From positions 6,262,001 to 6,326,000 of the forward strand of contig NZ_CP055153.1 of assembly GCF_014075995.1 (NCBI RefSeq): DNA of 64,000 bases. The letters run 5' to 3'. Of this stretch, positions 1 to 32,598 are shown one piece after another. How positions within the stretch are numbered: the first letter of the stretch is position 1; each line of letters starts with the position of its first letter. The notes beneath the pieces were generated by a model. That model worked only from the letters and a program-made list of their open reading frames with translations. It had not been told where the DNA came from and did no database searches. Position numbers and translations under genes: made by a program. The stretch is from Adhaeribacter radiodurans (GTDB taxonomy: Bacteria > Bacteroidota > Bacteroidia > Cytophagales > Hymenobacteraceae).

Positions 1-1833
1 GGTACCCCCTGGACTACCCCCGGCGGCGATTTTAATCCAACGGCTTCTGCCAGTACGGGTGATGTTGCAACAGGTCCTTTGGTTATTTCTGATTTAACCG
101 CTGATGTTCAAGCCTGGGTAGATAACCCAGCGGGTAACTTTGGGTGGCTTTTAAAAGTAGTAAACGAGGAACCTACCTTTACGGCTAAGCTCATTGCTTC
201 ACGAGAAAATACTGTTGAATCCCTCCGGCCCATTCTGAGTATCACCTATACCCTTAACGAAGGCTGGGACCAGCGCTATGGCGGTTTGGGCAACGAAGGC
301 TTTACCACTATTATTAAAACAGCGGATGGCGGCTATTTATCCGGTGGTTATACCAACTCTAACGTGAGCGGCGATAAAACCCAACCTAGTCAGGGCAAAA
401 ATGATTATTGGATTGTAAAAAGTGATGACTTGGGCAAGAAACTCTGGGACAAACGCTTTGGGGGTACGGATGATGATTACCTGAATCGCATTATTCAAAC
501 GAAAGACGGCGGTTTCTTATTAGCGGGGTCTTCCTTATCGGGTAAAAATGGCGATAAAACAGAGACAAGCCGGGGAAACCGGGATTACTGGGTAGTAAAA
601 ATAAATAAGGAGGGCACTAAGCAATGGGATAAACGGTACGGAGGCTCGGGCTACGACGAGCTCAAAAAAGTTATTCAACTTTCTACCGGCGAATACATTT
701 TAGCAGGTTACAGCAACTCCCCGGCTGGCGGCGATAAAAGCCAAAATAGCCAGGGCAAAAACGACTTCTGGATTGTTAAAATAAACAATACAGGTAGCAA
801 AATTTGGGATAAACGCTACGGTGGTAACTTAGATGAGGCTTTAGGAGGCATTGTGCAGACCTCAGATGAGGGCTATTTGTTAGGTGGCAGTTCCTTATCA
901 GGCAAGAGCGGCGATAAAAGCAGAGTAAACCGTGGAGGCAACGATTTCTGGTTAATCCGGTTGGATAAAGATGGTACTAAAATCTGGGATAAAACCTATG
1001 GTGGCAGCGGTCACGACGAAGTTTATTCTGTCGGAAAAGTAGGCAACAATTTCTTTATCTCTGGCCAGAGTAATTCTCCCGCCGGCGGCGATAAAACGTT
1101 GGGCAGTCAGGGCGGTAAAGATTTTTGGTTGATGAAAATTTCGAGTACAGGTGCTAAAGTGTGGGACCAGCGCTATGGCGGCAGTTTAGACGAAGAATTA
1201 CGGGCTAGTATCCAGACGCGGGATGGCGGGTATTTACTGGCTGGTAAATCGTTCTCAAATAAAAGTGGCGACAAAACCCAAGACAGCCAAGGCAGTAGCG
1301 ATTACTGGATCGTGAAAACCGATGCCAACGGCAAATACCAGTGGGATAAACGCTACGGGGGCATCGATGCCGAAGAACTTCGGGCAGTTATTCAAGGAAA
1401 TGACGGTAGCTTCTTGCTGGCCGGTAAATCAACCTCGGGGGTGAGTGGCAATCGAACCCAACCCAGCCAGGGCGGTTATGATTTTTGGCTGGTGAAGGTA
1501 GCCCCGGAAACTACACCCATTGTAACAGCCAGAGAAATCATGTTGGTAGCAGAACCGGCAGCAGAAGCAACACTCAGTCTGCTCCAGGCTCACCCCAATC
1601 CGTCTTCGGGTACGTTTATAATTAGTTTTGCTTTGCCCCAAACGCAACCTGCTCAAGTAAAAGTGTACAATAGCCAAGGCGGGGAAGTAGCCAATTTGTT
1701 TACCGGTGAGGCGCAAGCCAACCAAAAATATCAGGTTGAATGGCAAGCCGGAAAGCAAGCATCTGGAATGTATCTATTGCAACTACAAACCCCAACGCAA
1801 AAGCAACAACAGAAATTACTATTAACGAAGTAA
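1..1833 (+). CDS. Truncated T9SS-sorted surface protein: DNRLRE-like domain + seven-repeat propeller (array gene 1)
   Basis: The frame is open from base 1, so the 5' end lies outside the window; a TTG at 79 is not a convincing start. Residues 1-80 or so (LTADVQAWVDNPAGNFGWLL, then ASREN and RPILSITYT) resemble the end of a DNRLRE (CBM96-like) domain. Seven repeats of about 58-60 aa follow, each beginning W-D-x-x-Y/F-G-G and ending D-Y/F-W-x-V-K. The protein ends in a T9SS type A sorting domain (HPNPSSGTF ... GMYLLQLQT ... KLLLTK). The seven repeats align blade for blade with the last block of the six downstream paralogs, but here they follow a different N-terminal module. It is probably exported by T9SS to the cell surface. 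Its ligand is unknown. Confidence 0.85.
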   Translation, partial: GTPWTTPGGDFNPTASASTGDVATGPLVISDLTADVQAWVDNPAGNFGWLLKVVNEEPTFTAKLIASRENTVESLRPILSITYTLNEGWDQRYGGLGNEGFTTIIKTADGGYLSGGYTNSNVSGDKTQPSQGKNDYWIVKSDDLGKKLWDKRFGGTDDDYLNRIIQTKDGGFLLAGSSLSGKNGDKTETSRGNRDYWVVKINKEGTKQWDKRYGGSGYDELKKVIQLSTGEYILAGYSNSPAGGDKSQNSQGKNDFWIVKINNTGSKIWDKRYGGNLDEALGGIVQTSDEGYLLGGSSLSGKSGDKSRVNRGGNDFWLIRLDKDGTKIWDKTYGGSGHDEVYSVGKVGNNFFISGQSNSPAGGDKTLGSQGGKDFWLMKISSTGAKVWDQRYGGSLDEELRASIQTRDGGYLLAGKSFSNKSGDKTQDSQGSSDYWIVKTDANGKYQWDKRYGGIDAEELRAVIQGNDGSFLLAGKSTSGVSGNRTQPSQGGYDFWLVKVAPETTPIVTAREIMLVAEPAAEATLSLLQAHPNPSSGTFIISFALPQTQPAQVKVYNSQGGEVANLFTGEAQANQKYQVEWQAGKQASGMYLLQLQTPTQKQQQKLLLTK

Positions 1834-1858
1834 TAAAAGTAAATATATGCGTCTCATA

Positions 1859-2204: not shown

Positions 2205-5200
2205 ATGAAACTATCATTACTCTTTTTCTGCCTAAACTTTAAATTTTTTAATATCTGCAGGCAATGTCTACTTCTTATGTTGCTATTCTGGGCTACTTCT
2301 TTAATTAGAGTTTTTGCCCAAGACAAGATCTGGGATAATACTTTAGGGGGATACCAATCAGATGAGCTTAAAGCTATGGTAGTAACACCAGATAGGGGTT
2401 ACTTACTGGGTGGTACTTCCTGGACTGGGAAAAGCGGTGATAAAAGTACGAGCAGAAGAGGGGCCAATGATTATTGGGTACTAAAGACAGATAAAAACGG
2501 AATAAAGGAATGGGATAAAAGCTTTGGGGGAAGCGGCCAGGATGAATTACAGACCATGATAGCTACCCCGGATGGTGGCTTTTTGTTAGGTGGGTTCTCC
2601 TCTTCAGGTAAAAGCGGCGAGAAAAGTGAAGCAAACCGAGGAGGAAACAACGGAACTTATGACTACTGGGTGGTAAAAATTGGTGCCAATGGCACTAAAC
2701 AATGGGATAAAACCTTTGGCAGCAATGATTTTGATGAATTAAAAACTCTGGTAGCTACCCCGGACGGCGGTTACCTGCTAGGCGGTTCTTCGCAATCTGG
2801 CGGAATAAGTGGCGATAAGACCCAGGAGAATAAGGGTTGGATTGACTATTGGGTGATAAAAGTAGATGCAAAAGGAAACAAACTCTGGGATAAGACTTAC
2901 GGCGGCAACGATGAAGATAAATTATTATCCATGGTAACTACTCCTGATGGGGGATATTTACTGGGAGGGCATTCTACATCGGGCAAGAGTGGAGATAAAA
3001 GTGAAACAAACAGGGGTTTACTCCAAAGAGGGTTTTATGAAACTTCGGACTACTGGGTAGTAAAGGTAGATGCCAATGGAAATAAAATCTGGGATAAAAC
3101 CTTTGGGGGCAGCGAAGCCGATCACTTAACAACAATAGCACTTACAAAGGATGGGGGTTATTTGCTGGGGGGCAGCTCTTATTCTACCGCTAGTGGCGAC
3201 AAAACGGAAGTTAGCCGGGGTAGTGGTGATTATTGGCTCGTTAAAATAAATAGTAACGGTAAGAAGCTATGGGATAAAACCTTAGGTGGGAATGATTATG
3301 ATCAGCTTACGGCTATTGTTACTATTCCGGGTTATGGCTATCTGTTGGGAGGCTGGTCTTTCTCTGGTATAGCAGGCGATAAGTTAGAAGCCAATCGGGG
3401 CCGCGAAGGATATACAACGTATGATTATTGGATTATTAAAATAGATGAAAATGGCAATAGAAGTTGGGATAAAACCATTGGGGGGAATCTGAATGACGAA
3501 TTAGCGGCTTTAGCGGTTACCGATAAGGGTTACTTGCTCGCCGGAACTTCCAGTTCGGCTCAAAGTGGTGATAAAAGCGAACCCGAAAGAGTAAATGATT
3601 ACTGGATAGTAGAACTGCAGGAAAGCGGCAAAAACTGGCAGAGCATTACCTTTGAACCTGTCTTAAACAAAACATTAGATAATAAGCCTTTTCCGCTTTT
3701 CGTTTCTTCTAGTTCAAAACTACCGGTTACCTTAAGCGTGGTCTCCGGCCCGGCTATTCTTAAAAATAATATAATTACCCTCACTGGTACAGGCTTGGTT
3801 ACCATTAAAGCTTCGCAGGCCGGCGATGACCGCTATTTCCCGGCTCAGGATGTTTACCGTAGCTTTCTGGTTGAGAATGTATCAGCGTTTACCAAACTCT
3901 GGGACAAACGTTACGGGGGCAATTTTTATGATTACTTCGAAACCATTATCTCCACCCCGGAAGGCGGCTATTTACTGGGAGGAGATTCAGATTCGGAAAG
4001 GAGTAGCGATAAAAGCGAAGCTAGCCGGGGCCGCAACGATTACTGGATAGTAAAGACAGACAGTAAAGGCGTTAAACTTTGGGATAAACGCTTTGGCGGA
4101 AATGGCATTGAGAATTTAGGGGCTCTGGTGCCCACTCCAGATGGTGGTTATTTGCTGGGTGGTTTTTCCGATACTGGCAAAAATGGCGATAAAACCCAAC
4201 CGAATAAAGGTTATTTGGGATCTACTGATTACTGGATTATAAAGCTAGATTCTGATGGCAATAAAATTTGGGATAAGACCTTTGGTAGTAATTTCTCCGA
4301 ATTTCTTACTGTAATTATTCCTACAGCAGATGGCGGCTATTTATTAGGTGGTTATTCTAACTCGGATAATGGAGCTGACAAAACGGAAGCTAGTAGAGGG
4401 GAACGTTCGTTTGACTACTGGTTAGTAAAGATAGATGGCACTGGTACTAAACAATGGGATAAAACTTTTGGGGGTATTGGCGATGATAATTTAACTTCTA
4501 TTATTTCTACTCGCGATGGCGGTTATTTGGTGGGCGGCTTTTCAAACTCAGGGAAAGAGGGAGATAAGTCGGAAGCTAATAAAGGTCATTCAACGGCGGA
4601 CTTTTGGGTGGTTAAGATAGATGGCTCGGGCAACAAACAATGGGATAAAACCTTGGGTGGCACTGGAACCGACGAACTGAGTGGCCTGCTGGAGATCGCC
4701 AATGGAAGATTTTTGTTAAGTGGTTCTTCGGATTCAAAAATAAGTGGCGATAAAACGCAGAACAGTTATGGGGGCAAAGATTATTGGTTACTCCAGATGG
4801 ATGATAAAGGCAAGAAACTCTGGGATAAAACGTACGGGGGAAATAGCAGAGATAAATTAAATACTCTTGCCACTACCCTGGATGGTGGTTACTTACTCGG
4901 TGGGGAATCTAATTCTAAAATAAGTGGTGCTAAAAGCCAGATTAATCGAGGCGGTACGGATTATTGGGTAATCAAAATAAATAATAGCGGGGAGATACTC
5001 TGGGATAAAACTATTGGCGGTACTGGTAACGATGAGTTATTCTCTGTAATGGTAAATCCGGATGGCAGTTATTTATTAGGCGGAACTTCCAGGTCAGAGA
5101 TAGGAGGTGAGAAAAGTGAAGCTAGCAGAGGCTTCGCCGATTACTGGTTGGTGAAAACAAAAGAAGCCCAGCCCTTTACTGCTCAGTGGAATATGCGTTA

Positions 5201-6761
5201 CGGTGGTTCGGGTACGGATAATCTTACTTCCGTGACTAAAACTTCGGATGGAGGTTACTTAAGTGGGGGGTACACCAACTCCGGCGTGGGTGGAGACAAA
5301 AGCCAGCCGAGTCAGGGCAAATATGATTATTGGATTGTGAAAAGTGATAAAAATGGCAAAAAACTCTGGGACAAACGCTATGGCGGCAGCGAAGATGATT
5401 TTCTTAACCGCGTCTATCCCACCAGAGACGGCGGGTATTTACTCGGTGGTAGTTCGCTATCGGGAAATAGCGGCGATAAAACGGAAGCTAACCGGGGCAA
5501 TTGGGATTACTGGATTGTAAAAGTAGATAAACAGGGCAACAAAGAATGGGATAAAACTTTTGGCGGCAGTAGTTCCGATAACCTCCGGAAAGTGTTGCAA
5601 CTACCATCCGGCGAGTACGTGTTAGGTGGCAACAGCGGTTCTCCTAAAAGCGGGGATAAAAGCCAGGCTAGTTGGGGTAGTAGTGATTACTGGATTATAA
5701 AGCTCAGCAGCACCGGCGAAAAGCTCTGGGATAAACGCTATGGTGGCAACCTGGAAGAAAAACTAGGTAGCTTTAGCGACACACAAGGTGGGGGCTTTTT
5801 GCTGGCAGGTAGTTCTTACTCGGGCATCAGCGGCGATAAAAGTCAAGTAAGCCAGGGCAATAACGATTTCTGGCTGGTGCAAATTGATCAGGATGGAAAC
5901 TTACTCTGGGAAAAAACCTTGGGCGGCAATGGGCAGGAGGAGGTGTACACTTTAGGAAGAAGCAATGGTACTAACTTGTTTGTGGCGGGCACGAGTACCT
6001 CCGGTAAGAGTGGCGACAAGAGCCAGGCGAGTAGGGGTAAAAAAGACTACTGGCTAGTAAAGATAGATGCCAAGGGAACCAAACTCTGGGATAAAACGTA
6101 CGGCGGCAGCCAGGACGACGAATTACGCTTTAGTGAGTTTGCCACCGGTGGGCATTATATTCTGGCTGGGTACTCGTATTCAGGTATCGGCGGTGATAAA
6201 ACGCAAGCCAGCCAAGGCAGTAGTGATTATTGGATAGTAGAAGCAGATGAAAAAGGCGAAAAAATAGTGGATCAGCGATTTGGTGGTAGTGGCACCGAAG
6301 AACTAAGAACAATCTTTCAAACCAAAGACGGTGGGTTGCTCTTAGGTGGTCGCTCCGACTCGGGCGTGAGTGGCGATAGAACGCAGCCCAGCCAAGGAGG
6401 AATGGATTACTGGCTCGTGAAAGTAGCTCCGGTAAGCAGTCCGATTGTAGCAGCCAGAGAAGCCCTGCCAATGACCACTGAGCCAGTAAAGGAAGCCAAG
6501 CTAAACTTGTTAAAAGTGTACCCAAATCCATTCAGAGACAGAGTAACCGTGAGCTTTACTTTACCCCAAACGCAACCAGTTAGTGTGAAGGTGTACAATA
6601 ACCAAGGTAAAGAATTAACAACTTTGTTCCGGGGCGAAGCCAAAGCCGATCAAACGTATGAAGTAGAATGGCAAGCGAACAACCAAGCCGCTGGTTTGTA
6701 CTTTTTACAAATGCAAACCCCTACTACACCCCAGCAACAAAAACTGCTCTTAACGAGGTAA
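2205..6761 (+). CDS. Giant T9SS-sorted triple seven-repeat propeller protein (array gene 2)
   Basis: I chose the ATG at 2205 over the in-frame TTG at 2193 because it begins a normal signal peptide (MKLSLLFF, long hydrophobic run, cleavage near VFAQ). The product is 1518 aa. Approximate layout: seven repeats at 41-475, an Ig-like domain at 477-560 (SITFEP ... LPVTLSVVSGPAIL), seven repeats at 564-985, seven repeats at 990-1405, and a T9SS type A sorting domain at 1435-1518 (VYPNPFRDRVTVSFTLPQ, ending KLLLTR). The repeat is W-D-K-x-Y/F-G-G, about 8 aa, T-x-D-G-G-Y-L-L-G-G, S-G-D-K-S, D-Y-W-V-V-K, D-x-x-G. I see no cysteine outside the signal peptide. It has its own terminator and leader element. 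It is likely a secreted, surface-anchored beta-propeller protein; binding partner unknown. Confidence 0.88.
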   Translation: MKLSLLFFCLNFKFFNICRQCLLLMLLFWATSLIRVFAQDKIWDNTLGGYQSDELKAMVVTPDRGYLLGGTSWTGKSGDKSTSRRGANDYWVLKTDKNGIKEWDKSFGGSGQDELQTMIATPDGGFLLGGFSSSGKSGEKSEANRGGNNGTYDYWVVKIGANGTKQWDKTFGSNDFDELKTLVATPDGGYLLGGSSQSGGISGDKTQENKGWIDYWVIKVDAKGNKLWDKTYGGNDEDKLLSMVTTPDGGYLLGGHSTSGKSGDKSETNRGLLQRGFYETSDYWVVKVDANGNKIWDKTFGGSEADHLTTIALTKDGGYLLGGSSYSTASGDKTEVSRGSGDYWLVKINSNGKKLWDKTLGGNDYDQLTAIVTIPGYGYLLGGWSFSGIAGDKLEANRGREGYTTYDYWIIKIDENGNRSWDKTIGGNLNDELAALAVTDKGYLLAGTSSSAQSGDKSEPERVNDYWIVELQESGKNWQSITFEPVLNKTLDNKPFPLFVSSSSKLPVTLSVVSGPAILKNNIITLTGTGLVTIKASQAGDDRYFPAQDVYRSFLVENVSAFTKLWDKRYGGNFYDYFETIISTPEGGYLLGGDSDSERSSDKSEASRGRNDYWIVKTDSKGVKLWDKRFGGNGIENLGALVPTPDGGYLLGGFSDTGKNGDKTQPNKGYLGSTDYWIIKLDSDGNKIWDKTFGSNFSEFLTVIIPTADGGYLLGGYSNSDNGADKTEASRGERSFDYWLVKIDGTGTKQWDKTFGGIGDDNLTSIISTRDGGYLVGGFSNSGKEGDKSEANKGHSTADFWVVKIDGSGNKQWDKTLGGTGTDELSGLLEIANGRFLLSGSSDSKISGDKTQNSYGGKDYWLLQMDDKGKKLWDKTYGGNSRDKLNTLATTLDGGYLLGGESNSKISGAKSQINRGGTDYWVIKINNSGEILWDKTIGGTGNDELFSVMVNPDGSYLLGGTSRSEIGGEKSEASRGFADYWLVKTKEAQPFTAQWNMRYGGSGTDNLTSVTKTSDGGYLSGGYTNSGVGGDKSQPSQGKYDYWIVKSDKNGKKLWDKRYGGSEDDFLNRVYPTRDGGYLLGGSSLSGNSGDKTEANRGNWDYWIVKVDKQGNKEWDKTFGGSSSDNLRKVLQLPSGEYVLGGNSGSPKSGDKSQASWGSSDYWIIKLSSTGEKLWDKRYGGNLEEKLGSFSDTQGGGFLLAGSSYSGISGDKSQVSQGNNDFWLVQIDQDGNLLWEKTLGGNGQEEVYTLGRSNGTNLFVAGTSTSGKSGDKSQASRGKKDYWLVKIDAKGTKLWDKTYGGSQDDELRFSEFATGGHYILAGYSYSGIGGDKTQASQGSSDYWIVEADEKGEKIVDQRFGGSGTEELRTIFQTKDGGLLLGGRSDSGVSGDRTQPSQGGMDYWLVKVAPVSSPIVAAREALPMTTEPVKEAKLNLLKVYPNPFRDRVTVSFTLPQTQPVSVKVYNNQGKELTTLFRGEAKADQTYEVEWQANNQAAGLYFLQMQTPTTPQQQKLLLTR

Positions 6762-7243: not shown

Positions 7244-10200
7244 ATGAAAAAACCTTTATCTAATTTCAGCAGGGTTTCATTAACCCCGGTATTAGCGCCC
7301 AGGTGGCGTGGCTTCTCCGTTATATTGTTACTTCTTTTAACGCTTCCGGTTCTCACTTTTGCCCAAAATAAAATTTGGGATAAAACTATTGGCAGCAGCG
7401 ATTGGGATGTATTAAGTAGTATCCAACAAACCCAGGACGGGGGTTATATTCTCGGTGGCTACTCCGGTTCCAATATCAGTGAGGATAAATCTCAAAATAG
7501 TAGAGGCGGTGATGACTTTTGGGTAGTAAAATTAAATGCAAGTGGCGCTAAAGTTTGGGACAGAACCTTGGGTGGTACTTCCGATGATTTCTTAACTTCC
7601 ATACAGCAAACCAGCGACGGCGGCTATATTCTGGGCGGCAGATCACAGTCGGGTATAGGAGGCAATAAATCACAAGCTAGTAAAGGCGAATGGGATTATT
7701 GGGTAGTAAAATTAGCCGCTAATGGTACCAAAGCCTGGGATAAAACTTTAGGCGGCAGCGGAAACGACTATTTGTATTCAGTGCGTCAAACCAGCGATGG
7801 CGGTTATATTTTAGGAGGTTGGTCAGACTCGGGTATTGGTGGCAATAAAACCCAGGCCAATAAAGGCGAATCGGACTACTGGGTTGTAAAATTAAATGCT
7901 AATGGTAGCCAGCTTTGGGATAAAACTTTTGGTGGTAACCAGGCCGATGAATTAGCGGCCTTGGAGCAGACCAATGATGGTGGCTATATTCTGGGTGGTT
8001 TTTCTTCTTCTGGTATAAGTGGCGATAAATCGCAAAATTCCCGAGGCTTTAAAGATTACTGGGTTATCAAAATTTCCGCTAATGGTAATAAATCCTGGGA
8101 TAGAACCTATGGTGGTGCTTCCGATGATAATTTAACTTCTTTGCACCAAACCAACGATGGCGGCTATATTCTAGGGGGATCTTCTTACTCCGAAATAAGC
8201 GGTGAAAAATCTCAAGCCAATAAAGGAGATACAGATTATTGGGTAATAAAAATAGGTGCTAATGGTACGAAAGCTTGGGATAAAACCTACGGCGGAAACC
8301 AAGCCGATGATTTAGCAGCTTTGCAGCAAACCTCAGATGGGGGCTATGTTCTGGGCGGTACTTCCCGTTCAGGTCTTAGCGGCGATAAATCCCAGACAAG
8401 TAAAGGTATAGAAGATTTTTGGGTAGTTAAACTGAAAGCCAATGGCAGTAAATTCTGGGAAAGAACCCTTGGTGGATCTCCCAATCCTAATCCTTTAGCT
8501 TCTCTGCAACAAACCAGCGATGGTAATTACATTCTGGGTGGTTCTTCTATTAATGATGCTTCCGGCGATAAATCCGAAGATTCTAAAGGCTCTAATGATT
8601 ATTGGATCGTAAAACTGGATAACAGTAATACCAATATTAGCCAAACCATCAATTTCAAACCTATTCCTTATAAAAGTTTAGGCGATGCGCCATTTGCTCT
8701 ATCTGCCACCGCCACTTCCGGGTTGCCTGTCTCTTTTAGTGTAGTATCTGGCCCGGCAACTATAAACAACAATATGGTTACGGTAACAGGTTTAGGCGAA
8801 GTAACCATTAAAGCTTATCAGGCCGGGAATGCAAATTATCTACCCGCCGAAGCCACCCGTACTTTTTTAGTTCGCAACGATATTCAAAAACCCTGGGATA
8901 AAACCTTTGGGGGTACTAATCTGGACAAGCTTACTGCTATGGTGGCTACGGAGGATGGCGGCTATTTGCTAGGAGGTTCTTCATTATCCGGCATCAGCGG
9001 CAATAAAACTCAGGCCAACAGAGGAAGAGAAGACTACTGGTTGGTAAAAACCGATAAACAAGGCAAAAAACTTTGGGACAATTCTTACGGCGGCAAAGGA
9101 GTCGATAATCTTACTTCTATTTTAGCTACTCCCGATGGGGGATATTTACTGGGCGGTTCTTCAGCTTCGGGTATTTCTGGAGATAGAAGTCAGGTAAACC
9201 GGGGAGGAACCGATTATTGGGTTGTAAAAATAGATAGCGAAGGAAACAAGCTTTGGGATAAAGCTTACGGCGGCAATATGGCCGATAATTTAACCGTGTT
9301 GCTGGCTACTGCCGATGGAAATTATTTGTTGGGTGGCGCCTCGACCTCGGGTGTTACCGGCGATAAAAGCCAGGCCAGTAAAGGCGATACCGACTATTGG
9401 GTAATAAAAATAAACGAAGACGGTGACAAGCTTTGGGATAGATCTTACGGTGGCAATAAAGCAGACGAGTTAGCGGCTATTGTCGCTTCAGATAATGGCG
9501 GTTATTTACTGGGTGGTTCTTCGGCTTCGGGCATTAGCGGCAATAAGAGCCAAACCGCCCGTGCCAAAAAAGATTACTGGGTAGTACGTATTCAGGAAAA
9601 CGGCGCTAAAATCTGGGATAAAACTTTTGGCGGTTCTCTGGATGCTTTTGAGCAAGGCGGCTGCGACCCCTCCACCGGAGAAGATTGCAATTTCTACTTC
9701 GGGGAATCTATTCTATCGTCTCTAGTAGCTACTCCGGATGGTGGCTTTTTGCTGGGCGGCTCTTCCAACGCCAATCAAGGTGCTGAGAAAAGTGAAGATA
9801 ACCTGGGCGGCGACGAATATTCTTACTTTATAAAAAGCTATTGGGTAGTAATGATAGATCAGGATGGCCAAAAAGTATGGGATAAAACTTATCAGGGCAT
9901 CTCAGATGCCCCATCCGATGGCCAGGGCTGGTTCTTTGTAACCGGAAATTCTATCCTGAACAAGATTGTTCCAATGGCTGATGGGGATTATTTACTGGCG
10001 GGTACTTCTAATGGCAGTAAAGGAGCTAGCAAAAGTGAAGATCCCCGGTTTGAAGATCCGGAATCGCCGGCACGGGATGATTATTGGGTAATAAAAATAG
10101 ACGGAGAAGGTACTAAAAAGTGGGACCGTGTTGTAGGAGGTTTCAGCAATGACTTTTTAGCAGATATTGTTCCGGCAGGTGAGGGCGAATATGTGTTGGG

Positions 10201-12108: not shown

Positions 12109-12885
12109 TTAAAGAACACCATGGGTAAGAACATAACCTGTTAATTCAACGGTGCTATTAAGACCTGCCTTTTTTAATATATTTTTGCGGTGAGTTCTTA
12201 CTGTTTCCTGGCTGATACATAAGCTTTCGGCAATAAGGCGGCTGCTATACCCTTTTAACAAGAGCTTTATAATGTCCCGCTCCCGGGCACTGAATACTTC
12301 TTCTGATTTATTGAACTGCAGACTTTGCGGGTTGATATGAAAAATCTCCTGCGTATAACGGTTCATTTGCAAAGCTTGTGGTACTTGGGTAACCCCCAAG
12401 TAAGAGATGTCGGTATAGATGTTGGAGAAAACAAAAGGAATTTTATCTTCATCAAAGTACAGCGGAATGCACTGATGTTGAACCGTAATTATTTTGCCAT
12501 CTTTTCTTCGGGCCCGGTAAAAGTAAACGAAAAAGATCAGCTCTCTTTCTTCTACCGGCCGGCTTTTAAAATACTGCATGCCTAATTGGGTTACCAATAT
12601 GTTAAACTTAGTATCTTCCGGCAAACCAAATTGCATCGAGAACTCGGCATCCTGAGCTAATATTTCGGCTGCCGAGTAACCGCTCACCTCTTCGCAATCG
12701 CCGTGTACCAAACCCATGTGCCAAGTACTTAGATTAGACACAATAACAAAGAAATGGCCAATGGTCCATAAATTTTTTACTAAAGGATGATTGGCTAATT
12801 GTTGCTGGTATTGATTATCTGAGACCAGAAAAGGATGCTGGTCAAGTTTCAATGCTTTTTTAAGGTCTAGTGCCAAGTTTTGCAT
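12109..12885 (-). CDS. PAS domain-containing LuxR-type transcriptional regulator
   Basis: The product is 258 aa from the ATG at 12885; a TTG two codons upstream is less likely. Residues about 45-165 look like a PAS sensor fold (YSAAEILAQD, then FYRARRKDGKIITVQHQCIP and a closing FSNIYTDIS). Residues about 198-256 are a LuxR helix-turn-helix (FSARERDIIKLLLKGYSSRL, ISQETVRTHRKNILKKAGL). There is no receiver domain, so it probably senses a ligand or redox state directly through PAS. It is the only gene breaking the giant-protein array and reads the opposite way. A perfect palindrome lies 42 bp before its start. It may regulate itself or the neighbouring genes, but this is inference. Confidence 0.88.
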   Translation of the reverse strand: MQNLALDLKKALKLDQHPFLVSDNQYQQQLANHPLVKNLWTIGHFFVIVSNLSTWHMGLVHGDCEEVSGYSAAEILAQDAEFSMQFGLPEDTKFNILVTQLGMQYFKSRPVEERELIFFVYFYRARRKDGKIITVQHQCIPLYFDEDKIPFVFSNIYTDISYLGVTQVPQALQMNRYTQEIFHINPQSLQFNKSEEVFSARERDIIKLLLKGYSSRLIAESLCISQETVRTHRKNILKKAGLNSTVELTGYVLTHGVL

Positions 12886-22998: not shown

Positions 22999-23036
22999 AG
23001 CAAGCGGGATGAGAACGTTCTCATCCCGCTTGCTTT
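22999..23036 (+). terminator. Perfect 18-bp stem terminator after array gene 5
   Basis: AGCAAGCGGGATGAGAAC is followed directly by its exact reverse complement and then TTTTT. Its sequence differs from the terminators of genes 1-3. Confidence 0.85.
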
Positions 23037-23266: not shown

Positions 23267-26200
23267 ATGAAAATACTTATAAATCTTTCCTTAAAGGTTC
23301 AATTAACCCGGACATTAGCGTTCCACAAGCGCAGCATCTGGCTAATCTTTTTACTACACCTAAGCCTCCCACTAGTAAGTTTCGCTCAAATCAAGACTTG
23401 GGATAAAACCTTCGGCGGTAATTCTTATGATTTTCTTACTTCTGTAGTAAATACTTCGGATGGTGGTTATTTACTAGGCGGTACTTCCAATTCTAATAAG
23501 AGCGGGGACAAGAGTGAAACTGGCCGGGGGCCAAAAGGTAACCGATACCAGGATTATTGGATAGTAAAAACTGACAATAAAGGTAAAAAAATGTGGGAGA
23601 AAACCTTTGGCGGAGAAAATTATGATTTTCTTAAGGCAGTAGTAGCTACACCGGATGGGGGCTATCTGTTAGGTGGTTTTTCTTCCTCGGGTAAGAGTGA
23701 GGATAAATCGGAAGCAAACAAGAGTAAAGAGTCGTATTATTCTGATTACTGGTTGGTAAAGATAGATGCCAATGGTAAAAAGGAATGGGATAAAACCTAT
23801 GGTGGGGATGGCGATGATGAACTCTACGCGATGGTAGCGGCACCAGATGGAGGGTATTTATTGGCAGGTCCGTCCGGATCAGATAAAAGTGATGATAAAT
23901 CAGAAGATAATAAAGGAGGTAAAGATCAACATGGGAATATCTCCTCCGATTACTGGATAGTAAAGATAAAAGCAGATGGTACAAAAGTCTGGGACAAAAC
24001 TATAGGCGGCAAACTTGATGACCGCTTAACCTCTTTGTTAGTCACAGCAGATAAAGGGTATTTACTCAGTGGTTATTCTATTTCCGAAAAGAGTGGGGAT
24101 AAGAGTGAAAATAAGCTGGGCAACTGGGTGGTTAAGCTGGATGTTGAAGGCAAAAAAATATGGGATAAGACTTTTAGCTACGGCGGCGACGTATCTGATT
24201 GGGCGTACAATAAGGTGAGTGCCTTGCTAAACACCCCAGATGGCGGCTACCTGGTCGGTACTAATGCTCCCTCAGGTAAGAAAGAAGACAAGAGTACGTC
24301 TTATGCCGGGTATTGGATAATAAAAATAGATTCCCAAGGAAAAAAGCAGTGGGATAAAACTTATGGGGGCAGTTTCAGAGATGAATTTAGAACCATGATT
24401 ACTTCTCCGGATGGGGGATACTTATTAAGCGGTATTTCTAACCGGAAAAAAGCAGGGGATAAGAGCGATGACAAAAAAGGGTATTGGATAGTGAAGATAA
24501 AGGAAAACGGTACCAAAGAATGGGACAGAACTTATGGCAGCGTTAATAATCATAATTTAGGTGAAGAACCCTCACTGAAGGCACTGGTACCTACCAGCGA
24601 TGGCGGCTTTCTAGTTGGGGGAAATTCCAGTTTAGGTGTCGACGGAGATAAGACGGAAGAGAGCCGGGGAGAATATGACTACTGGGTGGTGAAAATAGCC
24701 CTTACCAAGAAGAAAGAACAAATTATTACCTTCCCTACTCCCCTAATCACCAAAACCTTAGGAGATGCGCCTATTACCCTTTCGGCCAAAACTAGCTCAG
24801 GGTTGCCAGTTACCTTTAGCCTGGTATCCGGACCAGGCACCCTCAAAGGCAAAATCCTTGCGTTTACAAATCTAGGCACTATTAAGGTAAAAGCCTCGCA
24901 GGCGGGTAACGCGACGTATGCCGCTGCCACGGATGTTTTCCAAACCATTATTGTGGATGTACCCACTCCGGTTACCAAAGTCTGGGATAGAACTATAGCA
25001 GGAGAGTTTAACGACCTAATGGTAGCTACCCCAGATGGAGGATTTATAATGGGCAATTCCTCTAGGCTAACCAAGATAAATAAAGAAGGAACCAAAATAC
25101 AAGACATAAACATCACTTTTGATTTTTGGCTTGGAAGCCTATTAATAACTTCGGATGGGGGATACCTGTTAGGTGGAACTCCTCCTTTTGGGGTTGGAGC
25201 CGGTTATTCAATAGTTAAACTAAATAGCAATGGTACCACCGAATGGGAGAAGGATTTTAAAAGTGATTGGTCTACTACTGTCTTTAGCACCATGGTGCCT
25301 ACCCAGGATGGTGGCTATTTATTAGGCGGTTATAGTGAATCTGGTATTTACGGCGATAAAAGTGAACCGAGCCGAGGTAGTAGCGACTATTGGATTATAA
25401 AAATTGATAGTAAGGGCAATAAGATTTGGGATAAAACCCTAGGTGGGAATGAATGGGATAATCTTACTGCTATGTTAGCTACCCCAGATGGAGGTTTTGT
25501 ACTCGGAGGTTCTTCCAATTCAGATAAGAGTAATGATAAAAGTGAAACTTACCGGGGAGATTTTGGGGAAAACCAGGCTGTTCCTTCGGACTACTGGATA
25601 GTAAAAATAGATGCTGCAGGTAATAAGCAATGGGATAAAACTTATGGTGGAAATAATAGAGATGACCTTTCGGTAATAGTGGCTTCTCCGAATGGAGGGT
25701 ATTTATTAGGAGGCACTTCTTATTCGGATAAGAGTAGTGATAAGAGTGAATCCAGCCGGGATTCTCCTAACTCTTACAAAGGTGACTATTGGGTAATTAA
25801 AATAGATGCCATTGGTAAAAAGCTTTGGGATAAAACCATAGGCGGCAATCAAGAGGATTACCTAAGAGCTATAGTGCCTACTGAAGATGGAAATTATTTA
25901 CTCGGAGGTTCTTCTACCTCGGGCGTGGGGGAAGATAAAAGTGGGCAATATCGGGGAGGGAACTCGTTTGGCCAGGATGGTGATTATTGGATAGTAAAGG
26001 TAGATAATACCGGTAAGAAAATGTGGGATGAGAACTTTGGTACCAGCAGAAGGGATGATTTCACGGCTTTACAGGTCAGTACTGATGGAAGTTATTTGCT
26101 AAGTGGTACTTCCAACGCCGGCATTGATGGGGACAAAACAGAATTCTCCCGGGATCCAGATTCTATGCAGGGCATGAACCAAGATTATTGGCTGATAAAG

Positions 26201-27799
26201 ATAAAAGAAGATCTGTCCTTAACGGCGCAATGGGATCTGCGCTACGGTGGTTCTGGCAACGAAGGCTTTACTACTATAATTAAAACGAGTGATGGTGGAT
26301 ACTTAAGTGGAGGTTATTCCGCTTCAGGAGTAAGTGGCGATAGAACTCAAGCGAGCCAGGGTAAGAACGACTACTGGATAGTAAAATCAGATGCAAACGG
26401 CAAGAAGCTATGGGACAAACGCTATGGAGGTTCTGCAGATGACTACTTGAACCGGATCATTCAGACAAAAGATGGTGGTTATTTACTGGCGGGTAGTTCC
26501 TTATCGGGAAAAGGTGGCGATAAAAGTGAAGCAAGCAGAGGAGGCAGGGATTATTGGATCGACAAGCTAGATAAGCAAGGAAAGAAAGAGTGGGACAAGA
26601 GCTATGGCGGCAGTGGCTACGATGAACTCAAAAAAGTACTCCAACTCTCTACTGGAGAATACCTGTTAGCCGGTTACAGCAACTCCCCCGTGAGTGGGGA
26701 GAAAACACAGGCGAGTCAGGGTGAGAATGATTACTGGTTAGTCAAGGTGAGTTCTACCGGAGAGAAGCTGTGGGATAAACGCTATGGCGGTAATTTAGAA
26801 GAAGAGTTAGCAGGGATCGTGCAAACAGCGGAAGGTGGTTTCTTGTTAGGGGGTAGTTCCTGGTCTGATAAAAGCGGCAACAAAACAGGAGCTAGTAGAG
26901 GTAAGAGTGATTTCTGGCTAGTAGCCGTAGATAAAGAAGGTAAGCAACTCTGGGATAGAACTTACGGAGGAAAAGGTGAGGACCAAGCGTACTCATTAGG
27001 CAAAGCCGGTAATACTTACTTTCTAGCCGGGCAAAGTGATTCTCCAGCCGGATGGGATAAGACAAGAGATAGTCAGGGAGGCTTAGACTACTGGCTCTTA
27101 AAAGTAAGTAGCACGGGAGAAAAGGTGTGGGATAAGCGGTATGGTGGCAGTAAAGATGATGAGCTGCGTGCCAGTATTCCTACTCAGGATAGCGGGTACT
27201 TATTAGCCGGAAAGTCTTTCTCCAACCAGAGTGGCAACAAACGGCAAGATAGCCAGGGTTTAAGTGACTATTGGATGGTGAAAGCCGATAAAGATGGGCA
27301 ATATGAGTGGAGCAAAACCTTTGGCGGCAGCGGTGCGGAAGAACTAAGAGCCGTGATTCAGACCAGCGAAGGCGGGTACTTGTTAGGCGGTAAGTCCTAC
27401 TCAGGAGTAAGTGGCGATAGAACGCAACCGAGCCAAGGTGGATATGATTACTGGCTGGTGAAAGTAGCTCCGGAAGCTAAATCTATTGTAGCTGAAAGAG
27501 AAGCTACCCTGGTAGAAGAAATTCCATTGCCAATGGAACAATTCAGTTTAAAAGCTTATCCAAATCCGTCCTCTGGAAAGTTTACGGTAAGCTTTACTCT
27601 ACCGCAAACCCAGAATGCTAGCTTAAAAGTATACGACAATCAAGGAAGAGAAATCACTACTTTGTTCCAGGGTGAAGCAAAAGCTAATCAGAAGTATGAG
27701 GTAGAATGGCAGGCAAACAACAAAGCGGCTGGATTATTTTTCTTGCAACTGCAAAACCCTACTCTCCGGTGGCACCAGAAATTGCTAATAGCCAAGTAA
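23267..27799 (+). CDS. Giant T9SS-sorted triple seven-repeat propeller protein (array gene 6)
   Basis: The ATG at 23267 opens MKILINLSLK ... LPLVSFAQ; the product is 1510 aa. Layout: seven repeats at 43-480, an Ig-like domain at 482-566 (LGDAPITLSAKTSSGLPVTF), seven repeats at 566-980, seven repeats at 986-1400, and a T9SS type A domain at 1425-1510 (AYPNPSSGKFTVSFTLPQ ... KLLIAK). The first three blades of the middle block are badly decayed (WDRTIAGEFNDL, IQDINITFDFWL, WEKDFKSDW), but seven units can still be counted. The leader and first codons resemble gene 7, and 86 bp of the C-terminal region are identical to gene 7, so the two are recent duplicates or exchange sequence. Confidence 0.88.
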   Translation: MKILINLSLKVQLTRTLAFHKRSIWLIFLLHLSLPLVSFAQIKTWDKTFGGNSYDFLTSVVNTSDGGYLLGGTSNSNKSGDKSETGRGPKGNRYQDYWIVKTDNKGKKMWEKTFGGENYDFLKAVVATPDGGYLLGGFSSSGKSEDKSEANKSKESYYSDYWLVKIDANGKKEWDKTYGGDGDDELYAMVAAPDGGYLLAGPSGSDKSDDKSEDNKGGKDQHGNISSDYWIVKIKADGTKVWDKTIGGKLDDRLTSLLVTADKGYLLSGYSISEKSGDKSENKLGNWVVKLDVEGKKIWDKTFSYGGDVSDWAYNKVSALLNTPDGGYLVGTNAPSGKKEDKSTSYAGYWIIKIDSQGKKQWDKTYGGSFRDEFRTMITSPDGGYLLSGISNRKKAGDKSDDKKGYWIVKIKENGTKEWDRTYGSVNNHNLGEEPSLKALVPTSDGGFLVGGNSSLGVDGDKTEESRGEYDYWVVKIALTKKKEQIITFPTPLITKTLGDAPITLSAKTSSGLPVTFSLVSGPGTLKGKILAFTNLGTIKVKASQAGNATYAAATDVFQTIIVDVPTPVTKVWDRTIAGEFNDLMVATPDGGFIMGNSSRLTKINKEGTKIQDINITFDFWLGSLLITSDGGYLLGGTPPFGVGAGYSIVKLNSNGTTEWEKDFKSDWSTTVFSTMVPTQDGGYLLGGYSESGIYGDKSEPSRGSSDYWIIKIDSKGNKIWDKTLGGNEWDNLTAMLATPDGGFVLGGSSNSDKSNDKSETYRGDFGENQAVPSDYWIVKIDAAGNKQWDKTYGGNNRDDLSVIVASPNGGYLLGGTSYSDKSSDKSESSRDSPNSYKGDYWVIKIDAIGKKLWDKTIGGNQEDYLRAIVPTEDGNYLLGGSSTSGVGEDKSGQYRGGNSFGQDGDYWIVKVDNTGKKMWDENFGTSRRDDFTALQVSTDGSYLLSGTSNAGIDGDKTEFSRDPDSMQGMNQDYWLIKIKEDLSLTAQWDLRYGGSGNEGFTTIIKTSDGGYLSGGYSASGVSGDRTQASQGKNDYWIVKSDANGKKLWDKRYGGSADDYLNRIIQTKDGGYLLAGSSLSGKGGDKSEASRGGRDYWIDKLDKQGKKEWDKSYGGSGYDELKKVLQLSTGEYLLAGYSNSPVSGEKTQASQGENDYWLVKVSSTGEKLWDKRYGGNLEEELAGIVQTAEGGFLLGGSSWSDKSGNKTGASRGKSDFWLVAVDKEGKQLWDRTYGGKGEDQAYSLGKAGNTYFLAGQSDSPAGWDKTRDSQGGLDYWLLKVSSTGEKVWDKRYGGSKDDELRASIPTQDSGYLLAGKSFSNQSGNKRQDSQGLSDYWMVKADKDGQYEWSKTFGGSGAEELRAVIQTSEGGYLLGGKSYSGVSGDRTQPSQGGYDYWLVKVAPEAKSIVAEREATLVEEIPLPMEQFSLKAYPNPSSGKFTVSFTLPQTQNASLKVYDNQGREITTLFQGEAKANQKYEVEWQANNKAAGLFFLQLQNPTLRWHQKLLIAK

Positions 27800-27805
27800 G
27801 TCAGC

Positions 27806-28164: not shown

Positions 28165-31100
28165 ATGAAAATACTTTTATATTTTTTCTTGTCTCAATTG
28201 AGCCAGCTATTCAACTGGTGCAATCCCTGCTTAATCTTATTTCTATCTCTTGGTTTCAAGACTATAATTTTCGCTCAAAACAAAGAATGGGATAAAACTA
28301 TCGGGGGTAGCAGCGATGATAAACTTTCAGCAATGATAGCCACTCCAGACGGAGGCTATATTCTGGGGGGCTTCTCCTATTCTAACAAGTCGGGTGATAA
28401 AACGCAAGGTAATAAAGGAGATTGTTATGGCTCTGGATGTTATACCAGTGATTTTTGGGTGGTAAAACTAAGTCCGGATGGTACGAAAGAATGGGACAAA
28501 ACCTTTGGTGGAGAACAGGATGATAAACTTAGGGCCATTATACCCGCCCCCGATGGCGGATATTTATTAGGTGGTTCTTCCGATTCGCCGGCTAGTGGCG
28601 ATAAAAGCGAGAGTAGTAAGGAAGTCCCGAATCAGGTTCGATATTATTCATCAGATTATTGGCTCGTAAAGATAGATGATAACGGGAAAAAAGTCTGGGA
28701 CAAAACCTTTGGTGGAGATGCGTACGAGGAACTTACCTCTTTAGCAACTACTCCCGACGGCGGTTTTTTAATAGGTGGCTTTTCCAATTCCGGGAAAGGG
28801 TATGATAAAAGCCAAACTAGTAAAGGAGCGGAAGATTACTGGATTATAAAAATAGATAGCCAAGGAAAGAAAATTTGGGATAAAAGCTTGGGTGGTGATA
28901 GCTATGATTATCTTACTTCCTTATTAAAAACCCCAGATGGCGGTTATTTACTAGGTGGTTTTTCCGCCTCAGGTAAGAGAGGAAACAAGAGTGAAGCCAG
29001 CCGGGATGGGCAAGATATTAATAATCGAGGAGATTATTGGGTAGTAAAAATTGATGCACAAGGGGAGAAAGTCTGGGATAAAACTTTAGGTGGGGATAGA
29101 AAGGATGAGCCTTACTCTCTGCTACGAACACCGGACGGGGGGTATTTAGTAGGGGGCTACTCGAACTCAAACCGAAGTGTGGATAAAAGCAAATCGGCAT
29201 ACGGGTACTGGGTAGTAAAACTTAAAGCTACCGGCGAGAAAGTTTGGGAAAAGGTATATGGAACTACTTATAATTATCCGCTCCAGAGCATGGTCGCTGC
29301 TTCGGATGGAGGCTACGTATTGGGTGGCAGCAACTATTACGTTGTCAAGATAAAAGAGGATGGCACCAAAGTGTGGGATAAAACTTTTGGCAGAGAAGTA
29401 CAGTTTAATGCCGATATTTTCTCTAGCCTGGTAGCTACGCCGGATAGAGGTTACCTGCTCGGCGGTTATTCTCGTTCGGACAAAGGGGGTTATAAAAGCC
29501 AAGATAGTAAAGGAGATTCTGATTATTGGCTAATAAAGATTAAGGACACAAATAAAATAACCCAAACCATTACCATCACTACTCCGCTTATTCTTAAGCA
29601 AGTAGGGGATGCGCCTTTTACCTTAACCGCCAAGGCTAGTTCCGGGTTGCCCGTTACCTTTAACGTGGTGTCCGGTCCGGCCACTCTAAAAGGCAATGTA
29701 CTCTCGCTTATCGGAGCCGGAAAGATTATAATTAAAATCTCGCAAGCGGGTAATAATGATTATAAGCCTGCAGCGGATGTTACCCAAACCATTATTGTGG
29801 ATAATCTTAGTCCGGTTACCAAGCTATGGGATAAAACCTTCGGTGGAATTTATAGTGATCGCCTTTCCACGCTATTACCTGCTTCAGATGGTGGTTATTT
29901 ATTGGGCGGAATTTCCCGAAAATCGCTGCAGAATGACCCGGGATTCTCCATCACTAAAATAGATAATAACGGAAAGAAGGAGTGGGAAAAAGACCTGGGT
30001 GGGGATAATGATACCCGATTAATTAAAGGGATAGTCGCTGCGGATGGGGGATATTTGTTCGGTGGTTCTTCTAATACTGCCTTTTTCTTAGAAGATACTA
30101 AGTTCTACATTGTTAAAACCAGCTCAGATGGCACCAAAGAATGGAGTAAAACTTTCTGGGGACCGGGTAATCTTAATAGCTTAATTGCTACGCCGGATGG
30201 GGGTTATTTGCTGGGGGGCAACACGTATGAATATAAAAAGGATGATAAGACCGAGGCGCCCCGGGGAAGTAGTGATTATTGGGTAGTAAAAATAGATGCA
30301 AACGGTAAAAAGCTCTGGGACAAAACTCTGGGAGGCAGTAAGGAAGATTATCTCACGTCCTTAATAGTAACTCAAGACAGGGCATACTTGATAGTGGGAT
30401 ATTCTGATTCTGAAAAATCAGGCGATAAAACCGAAGCCCAAAAGGGTACTTGGTTGGTGAAATTAAATACTGATGGAACTAAGGCTTGGGATAAAGTTAT
30501 AAGTGGCGGTAGTATTTCATCGTTGCAACAAACTAGCGATAACGGAATTATTTTAAGTGGTACTACATCGTCCAAAATGGATGATAGATCCGACACAGAT
30601 TACTGGTTGGTAAAATTACAGGCTAATGGCAGCCAAGAATGGGAGAAAACTTTAGGTGGCCCAGGTAACGATAGATTAATTGAAATAACAGCTACTCCGG
30701 ATGGCGGATATGTGTTGGGTGGCACTTCTACTTCGAAAATTGGATCAGATAAAAGTGAGGAGTCTCGGGGCGGTGAATTATATGGCGACTATTGGGTAGT
30801 AAAGGTAAATGCCACAGGCGTAAAAGTTTGGGATAAGACTTTAGGCGGTTATGATGAGGATTTTTTAGCAACTCTGTTGGTTACTCAAGATGGTAATTAT
30901 TTACTCGCGGGCACCTCTTACTCGGAAGCGAATGGCGATAAGAGCGAACCTAGCTTTGATAGAAGTTTGAGTCAAAGAGGAGATTACTGGATTGTAAAAA
31001 TAAAAGAAGACCTACCACTTACGGCCCAATGGAATATGCGTTATGGTGGCTCTAGGAACGAAGGTTTTACTTCGATTATCAAGACCAATGATGGCGGTTA

Positions 31101-32598
31101 CTTAAGTGGAGGTTATTCGGCTTCGGGAGTAAACGGCGATAGAAGCCAAGCTAGCCAAGGTAAAAACGATTATTGGATTGTAAAATCAGATCAGAATGGT
31201 AAGAAGTTGTGGGACAAAAGCTATGGTGGCAGTGGTGATGATTATCTGAACCGCATCATTCAAACGAAAGATGGTGGCTATTTACTAGCGGGTAGTTCCT
31301 TATCGGGCAAGAGTGGCGACAAGACTGAGGCGAGTAGAGGGGGCAGAGATTATTGGATTATAAAGGTTGATAAAGCCGGTGCGAAAGAGTGGGATAAGAA
31401 TTATGGCGGCAGTGGCTACGATGAACTCAAAAAAGTATTGCAACTAAGTACTGGAGAGTACCTATTGGCGGGGTACAGCAGCTCGCCGGTGAGCGGAGAT
31501 AAAACGCAAGCTAATCAGGGTGGGACTGATTACTGGTTAGTGAAAGTAAGTAGTTCGGGAGAGAAGCTCTGGGACAAAAGGTATGGTGGCAAAGAAGTAG
31601 AAGAGCTAAGTGGCATTGTACTAACAGCAGAGGGCGGGTTCTTGTTAGGGGGTAGTTCCTGGTCAGGTAAGAGTGGCAATAAGAGTGAGGAGAGTAGAGG
31701 TAAGAGTGACTTCTGGTTAGTAGCCGTAGATAAAGCAGGTAAACAACTCTGGGATAAAACCTACGGCGGCACAGGAGAGGATGAAGCCTACTCATTAGGA
31801 AAAGCGGGTAGTACGTACTTTCTAGCCGGGCAGAGTGATTCACCAGCAGGATTGGATAAGACGAGAGACAGTCAGGGAGGCTTAGACTACTGGCTCTTGA
31901 AAGTAAGTAGCACGGGAGAGAAGGTGTGGGACAAGCGCTATGGGGGCAGTAAAGACGATGAGCTACGAGCCAGTATTCCTACTCAGGATGGGGGGTATTT
32001 GCTAGCAGGCAAGTCTTTCTCCAACAAGAGTGGCAACAAACGGCAAGATAACCAGGGTTTAAGTGACTATTGGATGGTGAAAGCAGATAAAGATGGGCAA
32101 TATGAGTGGAGCAAAACCTTTGGTGGCAGCGGTGCGGAAGAACTAAGAGCCGTAATTCAGACCCAGGAAGGAGGCTTCTTATTAGGCGGAAAGTCTGATT
32201 CAGGAGTAAGTGGCGATAGAACGCAGCCGAGTCAAGGAGGCACTGATTACTGGCTGGTGAAGGTTGCTCCGGAAAGTACTTCTATTCAAGCTGAAAGAGA
32301 AGCTACCGTGGTAGAAGAAATTCCATTGCCAATGGAACAATTCAGTTTAAAAGCTTATCCAAATCCGTCCTCTGGAAAGTTTACGGTAAGCTTTTCTTTT
32401 CCCAAAAACCAAACCGCTACAGTAAAGATTTTTGACAACCAGGGTAATTATATAACTACATTGTTTCAGGGAGAAGCGCAGGCAGATCAAAGTTACCAGG
32501 TAGAATGGCAAGCTGCTAATAAGTTAGTAGGTTTATATTTCTTGCAACTGCAAACCCCTACTACTCGTCAGCAGCAGAAATTGCTTTTGACAAAGTGA
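28165..32598 (+). CDS. Giant T9SS-sorted triple seven-repeat propeller protein (array gene 7)
   Basis: The ATG at 28165 (MKILLYFFLSQLS ... KTIIFAQ) is preferred over the TTG at 28117. Its upstream bases also match those before the gene 6 ATG. The product is 1477 aa. Layout: seven repeats at 42-460, an Ig-like domain at 463-550 (VGDAPFTLTAKASSGLPVTF), seven repeats at 550-948, seven repeats at 952-1368, and a T9SS type A domain at 1393-1477 (AYPNPSSGKFTVSFSFPK ... KLLLTK). First-block blade 1 has a cysteine-pair loop (GDCYGSGCYTSDFW). Middle blades 3 and 5 are shortened. Probably a secreted surface protein; partner unknown. Confidence 0.88.
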   Translation: MKILLYFFLSQLSQLFNWCNPCLILFLSLGFKTIIFAQNKEWDKTIGGSSDDKLSAMIATPDGGYILGGFSYSNKSGDKTQGNKGDCYGSGCYTSDFWVVKLSPDGTKEWDKTFGGEQDDKLRAIIPAPDGGYLLGGSSDSPASGDKSESSKEVPNQVRYYSSDYWLVKIDDNGKKVWDKTFGGDAYEELTSLATTPDGGFLIGGFSNSGKGYDKSQTSKGAEDYWIIKIDSQGKKIWDKSLGGDSYDYLTSLLKTPDGGYLLGGFSASGKRGNKSEASRDGQDINNRGDYWVVKIDAQGEKVWDKTLGGDRKDEPYSLLRTPDGGYLVGGYSNSNRSVDKSKSAYGYWVVKLKATGEKVWEKVYGTTYNYPLQSMVAASDGGYVLGGSNYYVVKIKEDGTKVWDKTFGREVQFNADIFSSLVATPDRGYLLGGYSRSDKGGYKSQDSKGDSDYWLIKIKDTNKITQTITITTPLILKQVGDAPFTLTAKASSGLPVTFNVVSGPATLKGNVLSLIGAGKIIIKISQAGNNDYKPAADVTQTIIVDNLSPVTKLWDKTFGGIYSDRLSTLLPASDGGYLLGGISRKSLQNDPGFSITKIDNNGKKEWEKDLGGDNDTRLIKGIVAADGGYLFGGSSNTAFFLEDTKFYIVKTSSDGTKEWSKTFWGPGNLNSLIATPDGGYLLGGNTYEYKKDDKTEAPRGSSDYWVVKIDANGKKLWDKTLGGSKEDYLTSLIVTQDRAYLIVGYSDSEKSGDKTEAQKGTWLVKLNTDGTKAWDKVISGGSISSLQQTSDNGIILSGTTSSKMDDRSDTDYWLVKLQANGSQEWEKTLGGPGNDRLIEITATPDGGYVLGGTSTSKIGSDKSEESRGGELYGDYWVVKVNATGVKVWDKTLGGYDEDFLATLLVTQDGNYLLAGTSYSEANGDKSEPSFDRSLSQRGDYWIVKIKEDLPLTAQWNMRYGGSRNEGFTSIIKTNDGGYLSGGYSASGVNGDRSQASQGKNDYWIVKSDQNGKKLWDKSYGGSGDDYLNRIIQTKDGGYLLAGSSLSGKSGDKTEASRGGRDYWIIKVDKAGAKEWDKNYGGSGYDELKKVLQLSTGEYLLAGYSSSPVSGDKTQANQGGTDYWLVKVSSSGEKLWDKRYGGKEVEELSGIVLTAEGGFLLGGSSWSGKSGNKSEESRGKSDFWLVAVDKAGKQLWDKTYGGTGEDEAYSLGKAGSTYFLAGQSDSPAGLDKTRDSQGGLDYWLLKVSSTGEKVWDKRYGGSKDDELRASIPTQDGGYLLAGKSFSNKSGNKRQDNQGLSDYWMVKADKDGQYEWSKTFGGSGAEELRAVIQTQEGGFLLGGKSDSGVSGDRTQPSQGGTDYWLVKVAPESTSIQAEREATVVEEIPLPMEQFSLKAYPNPSSGKFTVSFSFPKNQTATVKIFDNQGNYITTLFQGEAQADQSYQVEWQAANKLVGLYFLQLQTPTTRQQQKLLLTK

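Follow-up and report, generated by a model that had tools for sequence, protein, structure and literature searches.

Predicted seven-bladed propellers with T9SS tails in Adhaeribacter radiodurans: a family of variable heads and a conserved terminal propeller

CylK enzymes, with catalytic residues Arg105 and Tyr473, contain the structurally solved β-propeller closest to the family of repeat proteins analysed here. We met the family in a 64,000-nucleotide stretch of Adhaeribacter radiodurans DNA (contig NZ_CP055153.1; C2:6262001-6326000 of the 6.94-Mb source genome, G000), called the window below, where each of seven array genes ends in a sorting tail of the type IX secretion system (T9SS). CylK (PDB 7RON, 7FH6-8) is the best PDB match in sequence (E 3e-24, and E 1e-27 in another search, the phmmer matches covering its propeller) and also the best fold match among the structures compared. 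According to the accessible part of its published account (PMC8916777), its propeller has seven blades, as predicted for the family; calcium sites lie where blades meet, and the loops of the top face are long. CylK is described there as an alkylating enzyme that also has a calcium domain at its N terminus, whereas the family has several propellers per chain and a T9SS tail.

Other described systems share some of these features. Highly repetitive propellers, as presented in the accessible part of PMC9218822, form a continuum of blade numbers from 2 to 47; like the family they have recently similar blades within one chain and several propellers per chain, but the family keeps seven repeats per block throughout, at about 50% blade identity. 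All four proteins scanned show repeat similarity to the SBBP-repeat lipoproteins of the LipL53 family (NF047494; 69.9-133.6 bits), yet the cut-off of 400 bits is not reached and the family proteins are not lipoproteins, carrying instead a T9SS tail. One of the four matches delta-60 repeats (TIGR02608) at 32.2 bits, under the cut-off of 76.5. Like T9SS type A cargo, the proteins end in a C-terminal sorting tail (over the curated cut-off in all four scanned), and the genome has a PorU gene (1383 bits); unlike such cargo generally, they place a monophyletic propeller between the tail and heads of widely differing kinds.

A hidden Markov model (HMM) built from regular window repeats counts 21 repeats per gene in all six complete genes, which are open reading frames (ORFs) on the + strand, which bears out the number given in the original prediction. 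Genes 3 and 4 each produce 23 raw matches, which become 21 when two insert-bearing repeats split in two are rejoined, and the decayed repeats of genes 6 and 7, though weak in score (5-22 bits), are found in register. The six share one layout: seven repeats, a spacer of 85-92 residues, seven repeats, a linker of 6-12 residues, seven repeats and the T9SS tail. Gene 1 begins upstream of the window; in full (C2:6261422-6263830) it comprises a DNRLRE-like domain (on the fragment inside the window, 26 bits against a cut-off of 34), one seven-repeat block and the tail. The fixed order of seven repeats, immunoglobulin (Ig)-like domain and twice seven repeats that had been proposed for the seven-gene array is therefore true of six of its genes. 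The Ig label reflects a presumed resemblance: the spacer is of Ig size and forms a β-domain in the gene 2 model described below, but no Pfam or NCBIfam model identifies it as Ig above cut-off in the three complete proteins scanned.

Modelling and the CylK match make it probable that the blocks fold as closed seven-bladed propellers. Two AlphaFold2 (AF2) models of parts of the gene 2 protein, built with 43 aligned relatives, have mean predicted local distance difference test (pLDDT) scores of 90.5 and 88.1, and each of the three gene 2 blocks has 28 predicted strands, equivalent to seven four-stranded repeats. One or other of the two blocks in the second model aligns with CylK at 2.3-2.7 Å over 424-435 columns; this is the clean superposition on a closed propeller, the assignment of the other blocks resting on matching strand patterns and confidence. 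The first model gives template modelling (TM) scores, on target, of 0.62-0.72 against YncE and Photorhabdus lectins, which are seven-bladed. Blocks begin with a WD strand and end with a DYW strand, suggesting that the first strand closes the last blade. The CylK match, the 28 strands per block and the repeat counts kept at large divergence (see below) thus favour the closed propellers envisaged at the outset, and open or solenoid repeats, to which neither the AF2 models nor the CylK match lends support, are rejected. Three points weigh on the other side. Taken whole, the first model is a poor fit to CylK (8.4-11 Å over 472-508 columns); predicted TM (pTM) scores for the models are 0.55-0.56, so that the arrangement of domains is not fixed by them; and the aligned family, being in register, may favour closed models.

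Since the closest solved relative is CylK, whose propeller takes part in catalysis (PMC8916777, accessible part), the family propellers might themselves be enzymes, like CylK or the virginiamycin B lyases. We consider this very unlikely. The CylK active site needs the N-terminal calcium domain, as the same part of that source has it, and Pfam and NCBIfam scans of four family proteins reported no N-terminal calcium-binding domain of the CylK type. Equally, some heads in the family are proteases, which leaves the propeller accessory there.

The constancy of seven was assessed in 209 ORFs from stretches of G000 and related genomes, together with three named loci. Forty-three ORFs open at a stretch edge, or without an N- or C-terminal end, were set aside. 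The 166 kept, which include three pieces of frameshifted genes (one of them supplying two of the blocks), contain 342 blocks of exactly seven repeats, eight decayed blades seen as gaps of 40-75 residues between matches being counted as blades. Three of these ORFs have 14 repeats without a visible linker. The sole genuine exception among intact-looking genes is one of 5+7+7 which, compared with its orthologue in the related genome G005, lacks two whole blades with the reading frame kept. Blade loss does happen, therefore, and is seen once among intact genes; other counts are found in broken loci, with a first block of one blade at C2:1749929 and one of eight matches at C2:1754060. The counting rule allows a short-linker boundary only after seven blades but would still reveal 5, 6, 8 or 14.

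Across the phylum, 27 of 247 genomes contain a family match at E 1e-25. With an HMM trained partly on the blades it counts, 39 of 40 homologous stretches from 25 genomes fit seven: 32 give seven directly and six give eight matches, one blade being split by an insert, while the other two have six matches, one with a 58-residue gap and one cut by the stretch end. Repeat number does not vary freely among homologues, and the constant seven that was first noticed in the array extends to paralogues and the phylum, as a property of the repeat family rather than of this array.

Seven might merely have been inherited from one ancestor gene, with no constraint on blade number needed. In keeping with this, blade order is fully 1:1 in six of nine orthologue pairs at 74% identity or more, with one blade differing in a seventh pair and two in an eighth, and 302 of 315 terminal-propeller blades find their match at the same position. 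The ninth pair shows the loss of two blades, and in three pairs at 60-67% identity blocks 1 and 2 are partly scrambled; on these 12 pairs, rapid turnover of blades among orthologues is rejected. Simple inheritance nevertheless seems to us rather unlikely. Identity at fourfold sites over 153 G000 paralogue pairs is 0.33 in blocks 1 and 2, near saturation given a random level of 0.26, and 0.36 in block 3, compared with 0.44-0.61 in the blocks of four orthologue pairs with G005; phylum homologues at 25-55% identity still fit seven; and blade loss, as in the 5+7+7 gene and the one- and eight-blade broken loci, occurs but is rare in intact genes. On our preferred proposal, seven would stay fixed since function and inheritance attach to complete propellers rather than to single blades, with lost blades seldom tolerated.

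A division more informative than the 7+Ig+7+7 layout is that between a variable head and a conserved T9SS-proximal propeller. In a FastTree tree of 332 blocks, 132 of 135 T9SS-proximal propellers fall in one clade (support 0.85, with 0.98 for a 130-tip subclade), which holds 111 of the 114 terminal propellers of multi-propeller chains and all 21 propellers behind a non-propeller lead of >150 residues; 182 of 183 inner blocks lie outside it. Identity in register agrees with the tree on this grouping, and these two measures were used to type blocks instead of whole-block profile scores, which repeated self-matches inflate. The heads include DNRLRE-like, GEVED, S8 subtilase, M6 peptidase, RCC1, FG-GAP and PKD domains, with a reprolysin-like head under cut-off (18 proteins or heads scanned, three having a propeller not beside the tail).

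The terminal propeller also stands apart in how it varies. Among inserts of at least 4 residues in 68 proteins with 21 matches, 494 of 507 (97%) fall in the loops between strands 1-2 and 3-4, which share one face of an antiparallel four-stranded blade and so place the inserts on one face. Inserts are borne by 141 of 461 blades in block 1 and 134 of 464 in block 2, but by 18 of 475 in block 3. Position-specific entropies in the two top loops are 1.14 and 1.34 in block 3 versus 1.92 and 1.94 in block 1, with 1.48 and 1.79 versus 1.05 and 1.86 in the bottom turns; the terminal propeller is less variable in its top loops and inner strand, not in most bottom turns, and a larger protein set agrees in the main. 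For the 45 proteins with strict 7-7-7 calls that gave the terminal-blade figure above, the best cross-protein match lies at the same block and position for 108 of 315 blades in block 1 and 171 of 315 in block 2. Positional signal persists in these two blocks (0 of 500 shuffles reach it; 18 G000 proteins), so that register is lost there only in part, perhaps through saturation rather than shuffling.

We lean towards reading the genes as encoding T9SS-exported surface-binding proteins, with variable heads on a common T9SS-linked base; 52 of the 143 T9SS-tail matches in the G000 genome are in family ORFs. From the anatomy of the proteins we infer surface display, ligand binding and a terminal propeller acting as docking or presenting base. 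A signal peptide would take each protein to the periplasm and its tail would take it across the outer membrane. Each block would close by having one strand of a blade first and the next three last, the first strand completing the last blade. The tail-adjacent propeller would form a nearly insert-free base under propellers, proteases, GEVED or DNRLRE heads, and the outer propellers, set apart by the Ig-size spacer, would bind varied targets (glycans, proteins) through the loops and inserts of one face. More tentatively, the terminal propeller could be a dedicated docking module, using its conserved top face and its inner strands to bind a single shared partner and so present the fused heads; a T9SS component, an outer-membrane glycolipid or capsule may be that partner. 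Two observations sit less comfortably with this scheme. The terminal clade leaves out 13 of the 14 single propellers that have a tail and lack a large head, so not every family member needs the base module, and outer propellers evolve no faster between orthologues than terminal ones do, which speaks against rapid antigenic variation and leaves diversifying selection without support. Literature searches, judged on titles and abstract openings, returned no description of this family or of a shared T9SS-proximal propeller; within that reach, the family is a lineage expansion of known kind and its head/base design one for which no published description was found.

The array might alternatively be a bank for antigenic or phase variation, switched or recombined. 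It has many tandem paralogues, and five of 54 G000 loci are apparently broken by a stop or frameshift. The terminal propellers of genes 4, 6 and 7 are 0.88-0.89 identical (fourfold 0.49-0.56) while their heads are 0.43-0.53 identical (fourfold 0.25-0.34), with the step at the linker between blocks 2 and 3 and tails at 0.39-0.73, which points to two halves with different histories. Gene conversion is rejected as sole cause of terminal-propeller similarity: paralogues differ widely at the fourfold sites of this propeller (mean identity 0.36), and even in genes 4, 6 and 7 the identity at these sites compares with 0.47-0.56 between species. Constraint at the protein level therefore matters too, though these three genes look mosaic. 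We give a variation bank little credence, given that orthologous heads are stable between species, that a search of six intergenic stretches brought up no evident invertible promoter, as a promoter-flanking inverted-repeat pair, and that no recombinase occurs among the 20 non-family window ORFs scanned.

The surface-binding proteins proposed here are encoded well beyond the window. Its array is the 3' part of a cluster of ~88 kb, with family genes from C2:6206421 to 6294595; C2:6214445-6294595 has 16 same-strand family genes, or 17 counting the reverse-strand gene at 6206421. The array therefore does not begin at window base 1, as had been supposed, but well upstream. Further groups lie near 1.27-1.30, 1.75-1.80, 3.04-3.07 and 4.08-4.13 Mb, with single genes elsewhere. 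G000 has at least 54 family loci, a lower bound from scoring 150 of 237 first-look candidates: 49 intact-looking ORFs and five broken loci in ten pieces, 59 ORFs that take up at least 216,504 bases (3.1% of the genome). Ten intact genes have one block, 12 have two and 26 three, besides the 5+7+7 gene, and a spacer of 84-111 residues separates blocks 1 and 2 in 25 of the 26. Layouts in the family include 7, 7+7, 7+Ig+7, 7+Ig+7+7 and one gene with 28 repeats, so that the triple-propeller layout, first taken for the distinguishing design of the array, is common but not fixed. The 28-repeat gene (G006 C1:4230564-4236599, 2012 residues) has four propellers and two Ig-size spacers. Just upstream of gene 1, a 21-repeat gene at C2:6256879-6261230 has its T9SS tail in a separate 140-residue frame and is apparently broken. 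Three other G000 family genes (C2:3041286-3045983, 3046226-3050968 and 1749929-1753531) contain a single in-frame stop codon; they may be pseudogenes, sequencing errors or something else.

Table 1. Array features in window coordinates; for genes 2, 4 and 7 an ATG is the likely start rather than the upstream TTG that opens the ORF
Feature	Position	Strand	Basis
Gene 1, 5' end cut: DNRLRE-like domain, seven-repeat terminal-type propeller, T9SS tail	1..1833	+	
Gene 1 propeller, 7 repeats	265..1503	+	repeat HMM
Gene 2 (ORF from TTG 2193; likely start ATG 2205)	2205..6761	+	
Gene 2 propeller 1, 7 repeats	2331..3632	+	repeat HMM, AF2 model
Gene 2 Ig-size spacer	3633..3899	+	repeat HMM, AF2 model
Gene 2 propeller 2, 7 repeats	3900..5165	+	repeat HMM, both AF2 models
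Gene 2 terminal propeller, 7 repeats	5187..6425	+	repeat HMM, AF2 model
Gene 2 T9SS tail	6516..6749	+	tail profile
Gene 3	7244..11911	+	
Gene 3 propeller 1	7376..8626	+	repeat HMM
Gene 3 propeller 2, inserts in blades 5-7	8894..10303	+	repeat HMM
Gene 3 terminal propeller	10331..11578	+	repeat HMM
Gene 3 T9SS tail	11666..11899	+	tail profile
Gene 4 (ORF from TTG 13463; likely start ATG 13496)	13496..18163	+	
Gene 4 propeller 1	13628..14899	+	repeat HMM
Gene 4 propeller 2	15161..16573	+	repeat HMM
Gene 4 terminal propeller	16595..17833	+	repeat HMM
Gene 4 T9SS tail	17918..18151	+	tail profile
Gene 5	18371..22993	+	
Gene 5 propeller 1	18506..19870	+	repeat HMM
Gene 5 propeller 2	20141..21376	+	repeat HMM
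Gene 5 terminal propeller	21413..22660	+	repeat HMM
Gene 5 T9SS tail	22748..22978	+	tail profile
Gene 6	23267..27799	+	
Gene 6 propeller 1	23399..24703	+	repeat HMM
Gene 6 propeller 2, first two blades decayed	24983..26209	+	repeat HMM
Gene 6 terminal propeller	26231..27469	+	repeat HMM
Gene 6 T9SS tail	27554..27790	+	tail profile
Gene 7 (ORF from TTG 28117; likely start ATG 28165)	28165..32598	+	
Gene 7 propeller 1	28288..29550	+	repeat HMM
Gene 7 propeller 2, some blades decayed	29827..31008	+	repeat HMM
Gene 7 terminal propeller	31030..32268	+	repeat HMM
Gene 7 T9SS tail	32353..32586	+	tail profile

Between genes 3 and 4 lies a gene for a LuxR/GerE-type regulator (12109-12891, - strand; its PAS-like part is under cut-off). 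A 90% copy occurs inside the G005 array too, and none in G003 or G006; the gene is rejected as a family-wide regulator, having one copy in two of the four genomes searched, array-adjacent in both. A perfect 18-nucleotide inverted repeat without spacer follows gene 5 (22999-23034), and other stem-like repeats follow genes 2, 3 and 6. These are likely terminators, in which case the genes may be transcribed singly. GC (guanine-cytosine) skew is 0.13-0.24 over the array (1-32000) and about zero beyond, probably reflecting glycine- and lysine-rich coding on one strand. Elsewhere in the window, a PorP/SprF-type T9SS membrane protein is encoded next to a protein with an FGE-sulfatase domain (60637-62952), and genes for a POT transporter, GH18, a PhoX phosphatase, GH20 and GH130 form sugar-using surroundings downstream of the array (36530-46472 and 55467-56672). 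A 1000-residue ORF (57364-60366, - strand) has no Pfam match at 0.001.

The family supplies a natural series: in over 300 homologous propellers, blade number stays at seven while the blades drift to about 50% identity. What fixes blade number thereby becomes testable, whether by comparing these propellers or by constructing ones with other numbers. The common terminal propeller, for its part, points to an unnamed T9SS cargo module. If its docking role is real, a large share of the secreted proteins of this lineage would rely on a single anchor, so far undescribed, that bears a repertoire of recognition propellers.

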